A program made the translations under genes and the position numbers. A stretch of DNA of 64,000 bases from IMG/VR virus record IMGVR_UViG_3300021378_001718, positions 1 through 64,000 of that record; one strand, given 5' to 3'. Below are positions 23,623 to 64,000 of this stretch, piece after piece. This DNA comes from a virus. Positions within the stretch are counted from its first letter, which is position 1. Every line of letters begins with the position of its first letter. The notes under the pieces were generated by a model. It was not told the DNA's origin. It ran no database searches and saw nothing but the letters and a program-made list of their open reading frames with translations.

Positions 23623-24756
23623 ATGAGTTATTATTTTACGAGTGAGAGTGTCTCAGAAGGACACCCGGATAAAGTTGCAGATGCAATCAGTGATGCTATA
23701 CTAGATTCATTTATGCAACACAAAGATCCTACTCTAAGATGTGCGTGTGAGACATTAGTTACTACAAATAAAGTAATAGTAGCAGGTGAATATAAAGGAT
23801 TTATCGACAGTTTAGATGTTGAATATCTTGTACGCAGAGTTGTTAAAAATATTGGCTATGAACAAGACGGATTTCATTGGAACAATCTAAGTATTGACAA
23901 TTTATTACATGGACAATCTCCTGATATCGCATTAGGAACAGATACGTTTGGTGCAGGAGATCAAGGTATAATGTTTGGTTATGCAACTAAAGACACAGAA
24001 ACATACATGCCCGCCCCTCTTTATTATTCACATAGAATTGTAGAAATGCTTACAGCAGTTAGAAAGCAAGGAATTATACCTTGGTTAGGTCCTGATTCTA
24101 AATCACAAGTCACTGTAGAATACAATGACGATAGCACAGTAAAACGCATAGACAAAGTAGTTTGTTCTACTCAGCACTCAGAACAGGTCGATATAGAGAC
24201 TGTGAGGGCACAAATACAAGAAGTAATACAAAAGACTTTGCCTCAAGAACTCTTAGATGAAAAGACACAGTACTTAATCAACCCAACAGGTAGATTTGTT
24301 GTTGGTGGACCTGACGGAGATTCAGGTGTTACTGGCAGAAAGATTATTGTTGACACATATGGTGGAGCCGCACCTCATGGTGGTGGAGCATTCTCTGGCA
24401 AAGACCCATCTAAAGTTGATCGATCAGCGGCATACATGGCTCGTTATCTTGCTAAAAATATTGTAGCATCAGGAAAATCAGATTGGTGTAACATTCAATT
24501 AAGTTATGCAATCGGTGTTGAGCAACCAACAAGTGTCTATGTAGAAAGTGATAGAGATAGTAGAGATTTAACTAAATGGATTACAGAAAACGTAGACTTA
24601 TCTCCTAAAGGCATTATCGACAGATTTAATTTATTCTCCCCTATTTACGGAGCGACTACAAATTATGGTCACTTTGGAAAAGAATATTTACCTTGGGAAC
24701 AAATCAATCTATTCCCTGAAACAAAGCCAAAGAAGAAAGCAGTTAAGAATAAATAG
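23623..24756 (+). CDS. metK: S-adenosylmethionine synthetase
   Basis: Makes SAM from methionine and ATP. At 377 aa it is nearly the usual length (about 384). It has the N-terminal ESVSEGHPDKVADAISDA with catalytic H14 and D16, the ATP-binding hexapeptide GAGDQG (110-115), and the P-loop-like GGAAPHGGGAFSGKD (248-261), so it appears fully functional. SAM would feed SpeD, the methyltransferases and the radical-SAM enzyme in this window. The Lys-rich end (KPKKKAVKNK) is a small extension. It may be expressed early and late through the overlapping promoters upstream. Confidence 0.97.
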   Translation: MSYYFTSESVSEGHPDKVADAISDAILDSFMQHKDPTLRCACETLVTTNKVIVAGEYKGFIDSLDVEYLVRRVVKNIGYEQDGFHWNNLSIDNLLHGQSPDIALGTDTFGAGDQGIMFGYATKDTETYMPAPLYYSHRIVEMLTAVRKQGIIPWLGPDSKSQVTVEYNDDSTVKRIDKVVCSTQHSEQVDIETVRAQIQEVIQKTLPQELLDEKTQYLINPTGRFVVGGPDGDSGVTGRKIIVDTYGGAAPHGGGAFSGKDPSKVDRSAAYMARYLAKNIVASGKSDWCNIQLSYAIGVEQPTSVYVESDRDSRDLTKWITENVDLSPKGIIDRFNLFSPIYGATTNYGHFGKEYLPWEQINLFPETKPKKKAVKNK

Positions 24757-45815: not shown

Positions 45816-46130
45816 ATGACTACAATGACTCCGGATCAAAATTGGACTGATGAAGAATGGAACAGTTTTAGATCACAAGTTAAAGATGTACTCGTTAAGG
45901 ATGTAGTAGAAGTTACTTTTACAAAAATCAATGGTGATGAACGTATAATGACTTGCACACTACAACCAGACAACTTACCTAAAGTTGTAATCAAAGAAGG
46001 TGAAGAAAAGAAAGAAAGGGTTATAAAAAATCCTGAGAAAAGTCTTGCCGTCTATGATACAAAAGCAGAAGGTTGGAGAAGTTTCCTTATCAGAAACATC
46101 AAGTCAGTAAATACAACCCCGCGCCTGTAA
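45816..46130 (+). CDS. WYL_2 / DUF2693-type SH3-like protein
   Basis: 104 aa. VVEVTFTKINGDERIMTCTL followed by a hinge and LAVYDTKAEGWRSFLIRNI is the typical two-part pattern of the small barrel proteins common in T4-like phages (DUF2693), thought to bind nucleic acid or protein. Its stop codon lies inside the 5' end of the tRNA-Arg gene. Confidence 0.8.
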   Translation: MTTMTPDQNWTDEEWNSFRSQVKDVLVKDVVEVTFTKINGDERIMTCTLQPDNLPKVVIKEGEEKKERVIKNPEKSLAVYDTKAEGWRSFLIRNIKSVNTTPRL

Positions 46131-46197
46131 CTCAGTTGGATAGAGTACCTGGCTACGAACCAGGAAGTCGGAGGTTCGACTCCTTCCAGGCGCGCCA
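46121..46197 (+). tRNA. tRNA-Arg (ACG)
   Basis: Acceptor GCGCCTG/CAGGCGC, anticodon ACG between CTGGCT and AACCAG, T arm GGAGG-TTCGACT-CCTTC (one imperfect pair), encoded CCA. The first 10 nt overlap the preceding CDS. The A34 would need editing to inosine by the host. Confidence 0.92.
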
Positions 46198-46219
46198 ATC
46201 AACATAAGGAAAAGTTTTA

Positions 46220-46295
46220 CCGCTCTTAGTTCAGTGGATAGAACAACTGCCTTCTAAGCAGTAGGTCCCAGGTTCGAATCCTGGAGGGCGGGCCA
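46220..46295 (+). tRNA. tRNA-Arg (UCU)
   Basis: Acceptor CCGCTCT/AGGGCGG (one G-U), anticodon TCT in ACTGCCTTCTAAGCAGT, T arm CCAGG-TTCGAAT-CCTGG, encoded CCA. Reads AGA, the main Arg codon in this genome. Confidence 0.94.
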
Positions 46296-46797: not shown

Positions 46798-46811
46798 GTT
46801 GCTGAAATCTC

Positions 46812-46819
46812 ACTAAATA
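46812..46819 (+). promoter_or_regulatory. T4-type late promoter of the polyamine operon, 5 nt from ATG
   Basis: ACTAAATA, then TTGTT, then the ATG at 46825. Predicts a leaderless late transcript. Confidence 0.65.
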
Positions 46820-46824
46820 TTGTT

Positions 46825-47799
46825 ATGAATAAAATAGAACATATTGACTTTACAAAAATGGATGTGAGTGACTATGTGGAATCATTAGAACATACATCTT
46901 TTACTTCCAGAGAACTCTACAATGCTTGTCAGTTATTCAAACAAATGAATGAAGACGAGAACTGCACAATCATTCTAACGATTGCTGGCTCAACGCAAGC
47001 CGCTGGTTGTCTTCAACTATATAGAGACTTAGTAAAACTTAATATGGTAGACATAATAGTTGCTACTGGAGCAAGTATTATCGACATGGATTTGTATGAG
47101 GCATTAGGATATCATCACTATAAAGGAACAACTAAAGTCGATGATGATGAACTCAGACAGAAAGGTATTGACAGAATCTATGATACTTATATACATGAAG
47201 AAGATTTAAAGAAAGTCGATCAATATGTTTGTGATATTGCAACTCAATATAGTGAAGGAAGTATAATGAGTTCCAGAGAGTTTCTACATCTTTTAGGAAA
47301 ACATACTCCAAACAGTTTAGTTAATGAATGTTATGAAGCAGGCGTACCCATCTTCTGCCCTGCTTTGAATGATAGTGCCGCAGGATTCGGATTGCTCAAA
47401 CATAGAATAGAAGAAGAATACTATTGCATTATCGATAGTATAGCAGACCTCAAAGAATTAACTGAATTAAAAATCAAAGCAAAAGATACAGGATTGTTTA
47501 TGGTCGGAGGCGGAGTACCAAAAAACTTTGCACAAGATATTGTAGTCGCGGCCGAAATGTTAGGAACCGAGGTACCACTGCATAAATACGCGGTTCAAAT
47601 TACAGTAGCCGATGTGAGAGACGGAGCATGTTCAAGTAGCACATTAGATGAAGCATGTAGTTGGGGCAAAGTAAGTAATCAACAGACTCAAATGGTGTAC
47701 GCAGAAGCAAGTCATATCTTACCGATCATAGCAAATTATGTTTATGTAAATTCATTACCAAGACCAGCACAGAAATTAAATGAACTTATTGGGAGTTGA
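46825..47799 (+). CDS. Deoxyhypusine synthase-like protein (possible homospermidine synthase)
   Basis: 324 aa. It follows the deoxyhypusine synthase fold: TIAGSTQAAG (54-62), DIIVATGASIIDMDL, GIDRIYD, VPIFCPALNDSAAG, FMVGGGVPKNF (226-235), and EACSWGKVS, where K282 matches the catalytic Lys of the human enzyme. The human H288 position is N234. Bacteria lack eIF5A, and bacterial members transfer an aminobutyl group to putrescine (homospermidine synthase) or act on related amines. In an operon with agmatinase-like and SpeD genes a polyamine role is very likely; the exact product is not known. Confidence 0.9.
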   Translation: MNKIEHIDFTKMDVSDYVESLEHTSFTSRELYNACQLFKQMNEDENCTIILTIAGSTQAAGCLQLYRDLVKLNMVDIIVATGASIIDMDLYEALGYHHYKGTTKVDDDELRQKGIDRIYDTYIHEEDLKKVDQYVCDIATQYSEGSIMSSREFLHLLGKHTPNSLVNECYEAGVPIFCPALNDSAAGFGLLKHRIEEEYYCIIDSIADLKELTELKIKAKDTGLFMVGGGVPKNFAQDIVVAAEMLGTEVPLHKYAVQITVADVRDGACSSSTLDEACSWGKVSNQQTQMVYAEASHILPIIANYVYVNSLPRPAQKLNELIGS

Positions 47800-48562
47800 A
47801 GAATATAGTTACGAGGATTGCAATGTTCTCGTAGTACCTTATGGCAAAGCAGATGGTTGTTCATGGGGAGCAGAAACTAAAGAAGGACCTACAGCCATAA
47901 TACGTGCAAGTCAAGAGGTAGAATTACATCCGTGGCCAGATAATATAAAAATACATACAATGGATCATTCATTGATATATCGTAATGTAGATGTGTATAG
48001 TGGTGTAATCGAACAAGCAAAGAAAGATAACAAGTTTGTATTCACGTTAGGAGGAGACCATAGTTTAACTTCTCATGCATTCAAACATTATGATTGTGAT
48101 ATCGTACAGTTTGATGCTCATTGTGATCTACGAGATAGTTATGATAATAATCCTCAAAGTCATGCATGTGCAATGCGTAGATGTATGGACTTAAATGAAG
48201 ATACAGAACTATATAGTTTTGGTATACGCAACATGAGTAAGAGTGAAGATGAATACATTCAACAAAATAAACATAGGATATTTAGAAACACACTGCCAAA
48301 GGGTAAAGAATTATATCTAACGTTTGATGTCGATGCATTTGATGTATCGATTATGCCTGCAACAGGTACTCCAGAACCGGGAGGCTTGTTATGGGACGAA
48401 ACGATAGAATTAATTAAAACAATATGTTATCAAAATAAAATTGTAGCAGTAGATGTAGTAGAACATGCACCAATAGCAAATATACCGGCGTATGATTTTG
48501 TTACTGCTAAGTTATGCTATCATATTTTAATAGAGTCATTAAAAAAACAACTAAAAAGGTAA
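47780..48562 (+). CDS. Agmatinase/arginase-family ureohydrolase
   Basis: 260 aa. All Mn-ligand motifs are present: LGGDHSL (H94), QFDAHCDLR (D112, H114, D116), SHACAMR (H128) and TFDVDAFD (D183, D185), followed by ATGTPEPGGL. That combination fits agmatinase, which would cleave agmatine to putrescine and urea, or an aminopropylagmatine ureohydrolase. It overlaps the deoxyhypusine-synthase-like gene by 20 nt and is followed by speD after 4 nt, so the three are one operon. Confidence 0.92.
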   Translation: MNLLGVEEYSYEDCNVLVVPYGKADGCSWGAETKEGPTAIIRASQEVELHPWPDNIKIHTMDHSLIYRNVDVYSGVIEQAKKDNKFVFTLGGDHSLTSHAFKHYDCDIVQFDAHCDLRDSYDNNPQSHACAMRRCMDLNEDTELYSFGIRNMSKSEDEYIQQNKHRIFRNTLPKGKELYLTFDVDAFDVSIMPATGTPEPGGLLWDETIELIKTICYQNKIVAVDVVEHAPIANIPAYDFVTAKLCYHILIESLKKQLKR

Positions 48563-48566
48563 AGTT

Positions 48567-48956
48567 ATGCAACCCACAATTCCTGAACATAAACATTTAA
48601 TAGTTCGTGCAGAAATTCACAACCCACCAAAAGATCCTGATTGGGTCAAAGAGTGGTTAACATCGTTAGTAGATAAGATCGGTATGAAAATATGCAGTGG
48701 CCCTCATACAGCATATGTAGATATTCCAGGCAACTCTGGAGTAACAGGGGTAGTAGTTATTGAGACAAGTCATATTGCAATTCATGTATGGGACGAAGCC
48801 GACCCTGCACTTTTACAATTAGATGTATACACCTGTGGTCCTTTTGATATGGACATTATCTTTGATGATATACAACAGTTTAATCCAACAAAAGTAGAAT
48901 GGAAATATTTAGATAGAGAGCATGGTCTAAATGAAGTGAGCAAATCTGTCCATTAG
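48567..48956 (+). CDS. speD: SpeD-type pyruvoyl decarboxylase (AdoMet decarboxylase family)
   Basis: 129 aa, class 1b size. VVIETSHIAIHVWDE and LDVYTCG hold the processing Ser (S68), proton-donor His (H73) and Cys (C90) of the pyruvoyl enzyme. The residue before the self-cleavage Ser is Thr (T67), where the enzymes I know have Glu (ESH). Classic members make decarboxylated SAM for spermidine; some homologues decarboxylate arginine or ornithine instead. No spermidine synthase gene is seen here, so either the host supplies it or this is such a variant. SpeD genes are known in cyanophages. Confidence 0.9.
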   Translation: MQPTIPEHKHLIVRAEIHNPPKDPDWVKEWLTSLVDKIGMKICSGPHTAYVDIPGNSGVTGVVVIETSHIAIHVWDEADPALLQLDVYTCGPFDMDIIFDDIQQFNPTKVEWKYLDREHGLNEVSKSVH

Positions 48957-49040: not shown

Positions 49041-49673
49041 ATGAAAAAGAACCTTATTAAGGTCTGTGTTTTAGTACTAATGGTGTTTAGTGTATCTCAA
49101 TTGCTTAAACAACCAACTGAGACACATATACAACAGAAGGTAGTAATCGTAGAGGTTCCAGTATTTGAAATAGGTTCTTATGAACTTGAACAAATTTTAA
49201 AGGAAAGTGAAGGACTCGAACCATTAATCAAAGAAGACATGACTCCACATGTCATTGTTGTAGACAACTCTGATATGATATATGAAGATATAGATGTGTT
49301 TTGTCTAGCAAAGAATATTTTCCATGAAGCGGGTATAGAGTCTGATATCGGTAAATATGCTGTAGCCCAAGTGACTCTTAATCGTGTAGCAAGTCGCAAA
49401 TACCCCAATTCTGTCTGCAAAGTAGTTCTACAAAGATATCAATTCTCGTGGGCAAATAAAAGATCCATGCACTGGACACACCCAAAAGGACCTAATTGGA
49501 ACAGATCATATGAGATTGCCCAGCAAGTTATGGGCGAAGGATATCGTGTAAAAGGACTAGAAAACTCCAAATATTATCATGCAGACTACATAAAACCCCA
49601 TTGGTCACGTAAAATGACGCATGTTTCTACCATAGGAAGGCATATTTTTTACACAAATGATGCAATCTATTGA
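49041..49673 (+). CDS. SleB-type cell wall hydrolase (endolysin candidate)
   Basis: 210 aa. Residues 1-25 are a basic start plus hydrophobic helix (LIKVCVLVLMVFSVSQLL), either a signal or a signal-arrest-release anchor. The C-terminal 130 residues match SleB/CwlJ hydrolases: LAKNIFHEAGIE (catalytic Glu), AVAQVTLNRVASRKYP, VVLQRYQFSWAN, and KYYHADYIKPHWS. It would cut peptidoglycan for lysis. Its own late promoter fits late lysis. It is the only clear lysin in the window. Confidence 0.9.
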   Translation: MKKNLIKVCVLVLMVFSVSQLLKQPTETHIQQKVVIVEVPVFEIGSYELEQILKESEGLEPLIKEDMTPHVIVVDNSDMIYEDIDVFCLAKNIFHEAGIESDIGKYAVAQVTLNRVASRKYPNSVCKVVLQRYQFSWANKRSMHWTHPKGPNWNRSYEIAQQVMGEGYRVKGLENSKYYHADYIKPHWSRKMTHVSTIGRHIFYTNDAIY

Positions 49674-62842: not shown

Positions 62843-63379
62843 CTATCCTCCTCCTGTTATTTGTTGAAATATTTTAATGTAATGTTCTTCGCCATCGGCT
62901 ATATTATCTAACCAATCTGTGTCTGCCCCTTCGTCTGCTTGATCACTGACATATTTGAAGCATTTAAAGTCAACATGTTGATTAAGACATGCTTTACCTA
63001 TTGCATATGCTTCCATGTCAACTACATGTGCTGGTATCTCTAAGTCAGGATCTGTGACAAAGTTGTCTCCAGTCGAACATGTATATCCGATTCCAAAAGA
63101 AATCACTTGTGGGTCAGTTGGTAGCACAAGATTAATTGATTCCGGGCATTTACCTTTATCACGTTCAACAAAATTTTTCATTTCATGTAAGCCAGATTCT
63201 AATTTGATTCCACCTGCTGTACCGAAATTCCAAACAGTTCTAGGTTGATATCTTTCAATTAATTTACCTGCTGTCAATGCCGCATTCACTTTACCTACTC
63301 CGGTAAAGAATACATTTTCCCACTTAGCCATTTTGGGTGCTTCGTGCTCCAATGCCATTATAATAATATCTTTCATCAT
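62843..63379 (-). CDS. MTA/SAH nucleosidase-like protein
   Basis: 178 aa, PNP/UDP phosphorylase fold. IIIMALEHEAPKM carries the Glu that activates water in MTA/SAH nucleosidases. GVGKVNAA, WNFGTAGG and TGDNFV follow, and VDMEAYAIG with YVSDQADE gives the purine- and ribose-binding Glu and catalytic Asp. It would split methylthioadenosine or S-adenosylhomocysteine into adenine plus a thioribose or ribosyl-homocysteine. Both are by-products of SAM use in this window. It is shorter than E. coli MTAN (232). APRT, two genes upstream, would recover the adenine. Confidence 0.87.
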   Translation of the reverse strand: MMKDIIIMALEHEAPKMAKWENVFFTGVGKVNAALTAGKLIERYQPRTVWNFGTAGGIKLESGLHEMKNFVERDKGKCPESINLVLPTDPQVISFGIGYTCSTGDNFVTDPDLEIPAHVVDMEAYAIGKACLNQHVDFKCFKYVSDQADEGADTDWLDNIADGEEHYIKIFQQITGGG

Positions 63380-63539: not shown

Positions 63540-64000
63540 TATGCACCTTCAAAATCAATTAAAGTTTTTACATTGTATCCTTGTTCTCTTATCAACTTGC
63601 TACCATTTAAGTCTGGTAAGTCAATGACTGATAAAATCAAAATATTTTTCTTTGGTATCTTCCAATTCTCATGTATCAAATCTGCACATGCTAATGCAGT
63701 TCCACCTGTTGCAATCAAGTCATCTATGATTACAATCTTTCCCATAATAGGAGAAATTTCTTGTATATGAAGTTCTGCTTCTCCATATTCTAACGTGTAT
63801 GCTTTGCTAACAGTTGCATTAGGTAACTTGCCTGGTTTACGTGCTAAGACTAGTGGCAAGTCTAAATCAAATGCTATTGGCGCTCCAAAAATAAAGCCTC
63901 TGCTTTCTATACCCACGATAGAATTACAGTTAAATTCCATACATGCCGATGTCAATGACATTATTGATTCTTTAAATGCATTAGGATCTTCTAATAATCC
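63539..64000 (-). CDS. apt: Adenine phosphoribosyltransferase (5' truncated by the window end)
   Basis: At least 153 aa; the frame stays open to the window edge. ESRGFIFGAPIAF and LARKPGKLPNATV are typical of APRT, and KIVIIDDLIATGGTALACAD is the PRPP-binding loop. It joins adenine and PRPP to AMP. With the MTA/SAH nucleosidase in the same operon it would return adenine freed from MTA or SAH to the nucleotide pool, linking it to the metK-speD genes. Confidence 0.93.
   Translation of the reverse strand, partial: GLLEDPNAFKESIMSLTSACMEFNCNSIVGIESRGFIFGAPIAFDLDLPLVLARKPGKLPNATVSKAYTLEYGEAELHIQEISPIMGKIVIIDDLIATGGTALACADLIHENWKIPKKNILILSVIDLPDLNGSKLIREQGYNVKTLIDFEGA

Follow-up and report, generated by a model that had tools for sequence, protein, structure and literature searches.

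A phage operon predicted to encode a route from arginine to homospermidine

Polyamine gene sets in cells and viruses

Single polyamine genes, above all speD, are known in phages. A 2023 survey of the virosphere found one phage only with more than one polyamine enzyme, and recorded no viral SpeY and no phage orthologue of arginase (PMC9992855). The SpeD of pelagiphage HTVC201P (PMC9992855) belongs to the same SpeD family as the phage enzyme described below and has the same active-site stretch, but its gene adjoins ribonucleotide reductase genes, with neither speY nor an agmatinase gene next to it. In Microcystis phage MaAM05 (MW495066) annotated agmatinase and SpeD homologues occur together, as in the phage studied here; however, this record carries speE and two speD genes without speY, representing an aminopropyl (SAM-based) pathway. 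In MW495066.1, a record named as phage, speB, speE and the two speD genes lie at 246315-249093, near purine genes. Virus-encoded routes from arginine to homospermidine have been described for Imitervirales and chloroviruses (PMC9992855). These are viruses of eukaryotes, however, with a homospermidine synthase (HSS) that is not homologous to SpeY and with PLP-dependent decarboxylases.

The closest parallels in gene content are cellular. Bacterial speD_A-speB-speY clusters, for example in Ca. Marinimicrobia, comprise the same three enzyme families, with homospermidine as predicted product and a SpeD that is a proven arginine decarboxylase (PMC10407285). In the tree of PMC10407285, this SpeD and the pelagiphage type fall into different lineages, and none of the closest cellular speY loci that we examined showed a SpeD within 4 kb. 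An operon of Ca. Pelagibacter (PMC9992855; L084 in our set) has an arginine decarboxylase gene followed by speY and an agmatinase gene, the latter two arranged as in the phages. Its decarboxylase is a PLP-dependent, ornithine decarboxylase-like enzyme of ~390 amino acids, compared with 129 for the phage SpeD, and its SpeY is only 54-57% identical to phage SpeY, which forms a separate clade. In Thermus thermophilus, the SpeY-type enzyme CdmS and the ureohydrolase SpeBap convert agmatine to homospermidine in vitro: two agmatines are coupled to caldomycin, from which the ureohydrolase yields homospermidine (Kobayashi et al., PMC10981699). Cyanobacterial SpeY, in contrast, has been described as putrescine-using (PMC9992855; PMC10981699).

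Here we describe a phage locus combining speY, an agmatinase gene and speD. A description of a phage SpeY operon was not found in our literature search, which had preprints and most subscription papers outside its coverage. Both a SpeY encoded by a phage and the complete pathway in phages appear to be new, whereas the bacterial trio and phage SpeD-type arginine decarboxylases were already known.

The operon, its surroundings and its relatives

The window, i.e. the whole stretch of 64 kb that was analysed, is part of a virus record of 71,046 bp. Three intact genes lie on its plus strand: a speY-type deoxyhypusine-synthase homologue (46825..47799, 324 amino acids), an agmatinase-family ureohydrolase (47780..48562, 260 amino acids) and a SpeD homologue (48567..48956, 129 amino acids). 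Their products matched the Pfam families DS (297 bits), Arginase (150 bits) and AdoMet_dc (61 bits), each above the gathering cut-off. An earlier note on this DNA had described three contiguous genes, with a 20-nt overlap between the first two and a 4-nt gap before the third, coding for deoxyhypusine-synthase-like, agmatinase-like and SpeD proteins; the ORF coordinates and Pfam matches bear out both the layout and the families. The phage context of the record includes head-decoration-like and structural-protein-like ORFs, a ribonucleotide reductase and a phage-family phosphoesterase. The closest matches of NrdA are in phages of Xanthomonas and Stenotrophomonas (52-57%) and those of one other ORF in Caulobacter jumbo phages (33-35%); the only nucleotide-level match of window positions 39500-64000 is a tRNA. 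A Terminase_6N family search gave no match in this phage and the related records, and in a Portal_T4 family search no control matched.

A relative of speY was found in 17 other IMG/VR contigs, in which the triad recurs as a block: SpeD is present in all 17, and agmatinase in all 15 that have sequence beyond speY. A scan seeded with agmatinase retrieved 15 close loci, all of them in contigs of this same set. Synteny of the three genes across 17 further viral contigs means that the linkage is not due to chance, and a phage-encoded polyamine operon, as the earlier note proposed, is well supported. The contigs fall into two groups. Group A (four contigs, L001-L004) has the order speY-agmatinase-speD and flanking genes in common with the window, and SpeY proteins 79-97% identical to that of the window. 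Group B (13 contigs), with SpeY 65-67% identical, has the order speD-speY-agmatinase. Group B looks like the Ca. Pelagibacter-type operon with SpeD in the place of the decarboxylase. Among annotated phage records no relative of the window speY was found. In L012, the only contig of group B to be annotated, the triad is surrounded by genes for a T4-type sliding clamp, a clamp loader, a family B DNA polymerase and UvsX, and the closest matches of this polymerase are in T4-like cyanophages (47-48%); where checked, group B phages are therefore T4-like. The agmatinase of L012 (10282-11138) lies in two overlapping frames; either the gene is frameshifted or the contig is misassembled here. We disregarded one further IMG/VR match (L106/L163), with 79% identity to SAR11 speY along a fragment, as being probably of cellular origin.

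The three genes had also been credited with one late promoter, and this was not borne out: in the window, CTAAATA occurs 20 times against 18.2 expected from shuffles and TATAAATA three times against 8.3, so that the motif counts are at chance. The motif copy at the operon ends 5 nt before the ATG. The stretch directly preceding speY (46804..46824, plus strand) was aligned in L001, L002 and L003. As its TAAATATT block is kept upstream of speY in these three of the four group A relatives (it is absent at the assumed start in L004), a promoter or leader signal at this position is possible. Genes for two arginine tRNAs, with the anticodons ACG and TCT, are found about 530 nt upstream of the operon, at 46121-46295; a tie between this pair and the predicted use of arginine by the operon is speculative. 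Directly 3' of the operon lies a gene for a SleB-like (endolysin-like) cell wall hydrolase (49041-49673), which is kept in all four group A relatives.

Predicted activities of the three enzymes

Window SpeD is predicted to be a pyruvoyl-dependent arginine decarboxylase. Its putative pyruvoyl serine lies in the motif ETSH, and the processing serine, the catalytic histidine and the cysteine of the YTC motif are all aligned. It has 47-52% identity with most SpeDs of pelagiphages, and the pattern ETSHIAxHxWDExxPAxxQLDVYTC in common with the HTVC201P enzyme. The latter was purified by Li et al. and decarboxylates arginine, not ornithine or lysine; furthermore, it failed to restore spermidine in an Escherichia coli speD mutant (PMC9992855). 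Group B SpeDs are more divergent than that of the window. SpeDs ~71% identical to window SpeD are also encoded on the viral contigs L115-L123, without speY or agmatinase genes in the sequence examined.

Alternatively, SpeD might be a real SAM decarboxylase, its product being used by a host spermidine synthase while metK supplies SAM and the nucleosidase and APRT recycle MTA. Indeed, the speD genes of several cyanophages and other phages code for true SAM decarboxylases (PMC9992855), and metK, a nucleosidase gene and an APRT-like gene are all in the same record. Moreover, in eight of ten SAR11 (Pelagibacteraceae) genomes SpeD and spermidine-synthase domains were found near each other in one apparent frame of ~350 amino acids, suggesting a SpeD-SpeE fusion, and such a host could therefore use decarboxylated SAM. 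However, window SpeD clusters with the HTVC201P enzyme, apart from the proven or standard SAM decarboxylases of S-PM2, phiYS40, P2559S and Thermotoga maritima (support 98/93), and its active-site stretch is that of a proven arginine decarboxylase. Its cleavage site is Thr-Ser-His, as opposed to Glu-Ser-His in those four enzymes, and it scored 55 bits against the SAM decarboxylase model TIGR03330 (cut-off 75.65). It also has WDE instead of WPE. This proline has been described as telling SAM decarboxylases from arginine decarboxylases (PMC10407285), but it is missing from the phiYS40 enzyme, a proven SAM decarboxylase, as well, and its absence is therefore supporting evidence only. Furthermore, the agmatinase gene is always adjacent, and a spermidine synthase (PF01564) was not found in the record and eight related records, some of which are fragments. 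We consider a SAM decarboxylase very unlikely.

These findings also bear on the supposed near-complete SAM and salvage set of the phage, which is not supported: SpeD groups with arginine decarboxylases, a spermidine synthase was not found, and homospermidine synthesis is NAD-using and produces no MTA (PMC10407285), so that it does not call for metK or for the nucleosidase and APRT-like genes. Of the individual genes, metK (at 23623) is firmly identified, with 474 bits against TIGR01034. The proposed MTA/SAH nucleosidase (62846-63379, minus strand) does belong to the PNP_UDP_1 family, but that specificity is not backed by its best NCBIfam model, the generic PRK05634, which it matched below cut-off (86 vs 129 bits). 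The proposed APRT is recognizable as an APRT-like ORF (63542-63961, minus strand), although the part within the window scores below curated cut-offs, cut as it is by the window edge; the whole ORF codes for 175 amino acids. MazG-like and dCMP deaminase-like ORFs, read by eye, adjoin these two genes, which makes general nucleotide salvage the simpler reading of both. The region from 61549 to the end of the window and on to ~65000 of the record, with nucleosidase, APRT-like, MazG-like, deaminase-like and nucleotidase-like ORFs, resembles a nucleotide salvage cluster. Among the related records, themselves fragments, metK and the nucleosidase gene were found in some but not in others.

The ureohydrolase has predicted metal ligands at His94, Asp112, His114, Asp116, Asp183 and Asp185 (GGDH, DAHxD and DxD motifs), all six invariant in the alignment. 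It scored 143 bits against the agmatinase model TIGR01230, below the cut-off of 174.3, as did group B (167) but not SAR11 (194); such a score is as expected of a divergent phage protein. A different route, from arginine through ornithine and putrescine to homospermidine, would require the ureohydrolase to be an arginase and SpeD to decarboxylate ornithine. Some phage SpeDs do act on ornithine (PMC9992855), and Imitervirales use arginase, ornithine decarboxylase and homospermidine synthase. This route is nevertheless very unlikely in our view, because the agmatinase model scores double the arginase model (69 bits) and the active-site stretch of SpeD is closest to that of an enzyme without ornithine activity.

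Window SpeY belongs to the deoxyhypusine-synthase fold family PF01916, and its Lys282 corresponds to the catalytic Lys329 of human deoxyhypusine synthase by alignment. The human sequence, which served as a yardstick together with that of T. maritima SpeD, is in agreement with the aligned PDB chain. The best model for window SpeY, by 175 bits, is the caldomycin-synthase model NF002699 of NCBIfam, with 450 bits against a cut-off of 500, which was also missed by the other phage SpeYs tested; SAR11 SpeYs (L084, 3950-4987, and other loci) scored 545-567 bits. The key residues of window SpeY are Ser56, Glu125, Asp132, Phe188, Cys269, Glu276 and Lys282. Six of the seven residues discussed for the Thermus enzyme match by position, with Cys269 replacing Leu286, in a mapping based on spacing and the human alignment rather than on direct comparison with the Thermus sequence itself. 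The pocket residues are the same in every bacterial SpeY checked, including those of Nostocales and Sphingomonas, and therefore do not discriminate between agmatine and putrescine; their use as proof of an agmatine route was dropped. A structure prediction for SpeY (nine sequences, mean pLDDT 67) was left out of the analysis.

The shared fold and Pfam family might instead denote a true deoxyhypusine synthase, modifying a host or phage protein rather than producing a free amine. Bacteria have EF-P in the place of eIF5A, which counts against this, and the residues of SpeY argue against it as well: both substrate aspartates of the human enzyme, Asp243 and Asp316, are replaced, by Phe188 and Cys269. 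A pair of deoxyhypusine synthase and agmatinase has been proposed to modify aIF5A in haloarchaea (PMC5178350), yet deoxyhypusine synthase models gave at most 275 bits with window SpeY, well short of its NF002699 score. A protein-modifying role thus appears extremely unlikely, and window SpeY is predicted to couple either two agmatines or two putrescines.

Taken as a whole, the operon probably constitutes a complete pathway from arginine to homospermidine that requires neither SAM nor PLP. SpeD would cleave itself at the serine of ETSH, generating the pyruvoyl group, and decarboxylate arginine to agmatine. With NAD and through an imine on Lys282, the SpeY-type enzyme would join two four-carbon units, and the ureohydrolase would strip the guanidino groups as urea. 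The last two steps could occur in either order: two agmatines may first be joined, giving 1,9-bis(guanidino)-5-azanonane (caldomycin), with hydrolysis following as in T. thermophilus, or agmatine may be hydrolysed to putrescine and two putrescines coupled. We lean slightly towards coupling first. Homospermidine would be the product in both cases and would presumably add to the polyamines of the infected cell. The earlier note had allowed for agmatine as a product of SpeD and for homospermidine as a product of the deoxyhypusine-synthase homologue; in its reading, the phage would make polyamines late in infection, perhaps to neutralize packaged DNA. The genes themselves, with their active-site residues, linkage, purifying selection and phylogeny, are observed, while we infer each activity, as well as the product, the timing and the benefit.

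Age of the module and implications

In a tree of SpeY, groups A and B formed one phage-only clade against 34 cellular sequences (support 100/100), and the agmatinases likewise formed a phage-only clade (99/97); both trees are unrooted, with cellular sampling from the best 80 loci. Within group A, dN/dS values were 0.04-0.24 for the three genes (0.05-0.14 for speY), and in group B 0.10-0.28 for the two genes tested. The triad genes are under purifying selection. Although hosts are the source of many phage metabolic genes, a recent host capture carried without function is barely conceivable given these dN/dS values, the deep phage-only clades and a block conserved across both groups of phages; the module seems to be long established in phages and maintained by selection.

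A pathway conserved as a triad in two phage groups would mean that some phages supply every step between arginine and a triamine, not one rate-limiting step, and such a phage route would run without SAM, PLP or phosphate. The triad is also a small, clonable system for studying the role of homospermidine in infection. It is possible, but put forward tentatively, that both phage groups encode a self-contained pathway free of SAM and PLP which proceeds from agmatine through caldomycin to homospermidine. If true, this would be the first virus-encoded route by way of a guanidino-polyamine, and the similar operon of SAR11 would be suggested to run through caldomycin too. The SAR11 SpeYs score above the cut-off of the caldomycin-synthase model, so that SAR11 homospermidine may also arise by agmatine coupling. 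This raises the question whether the SAR11 'SpeY' is really an agmatine-coupling enzyme.
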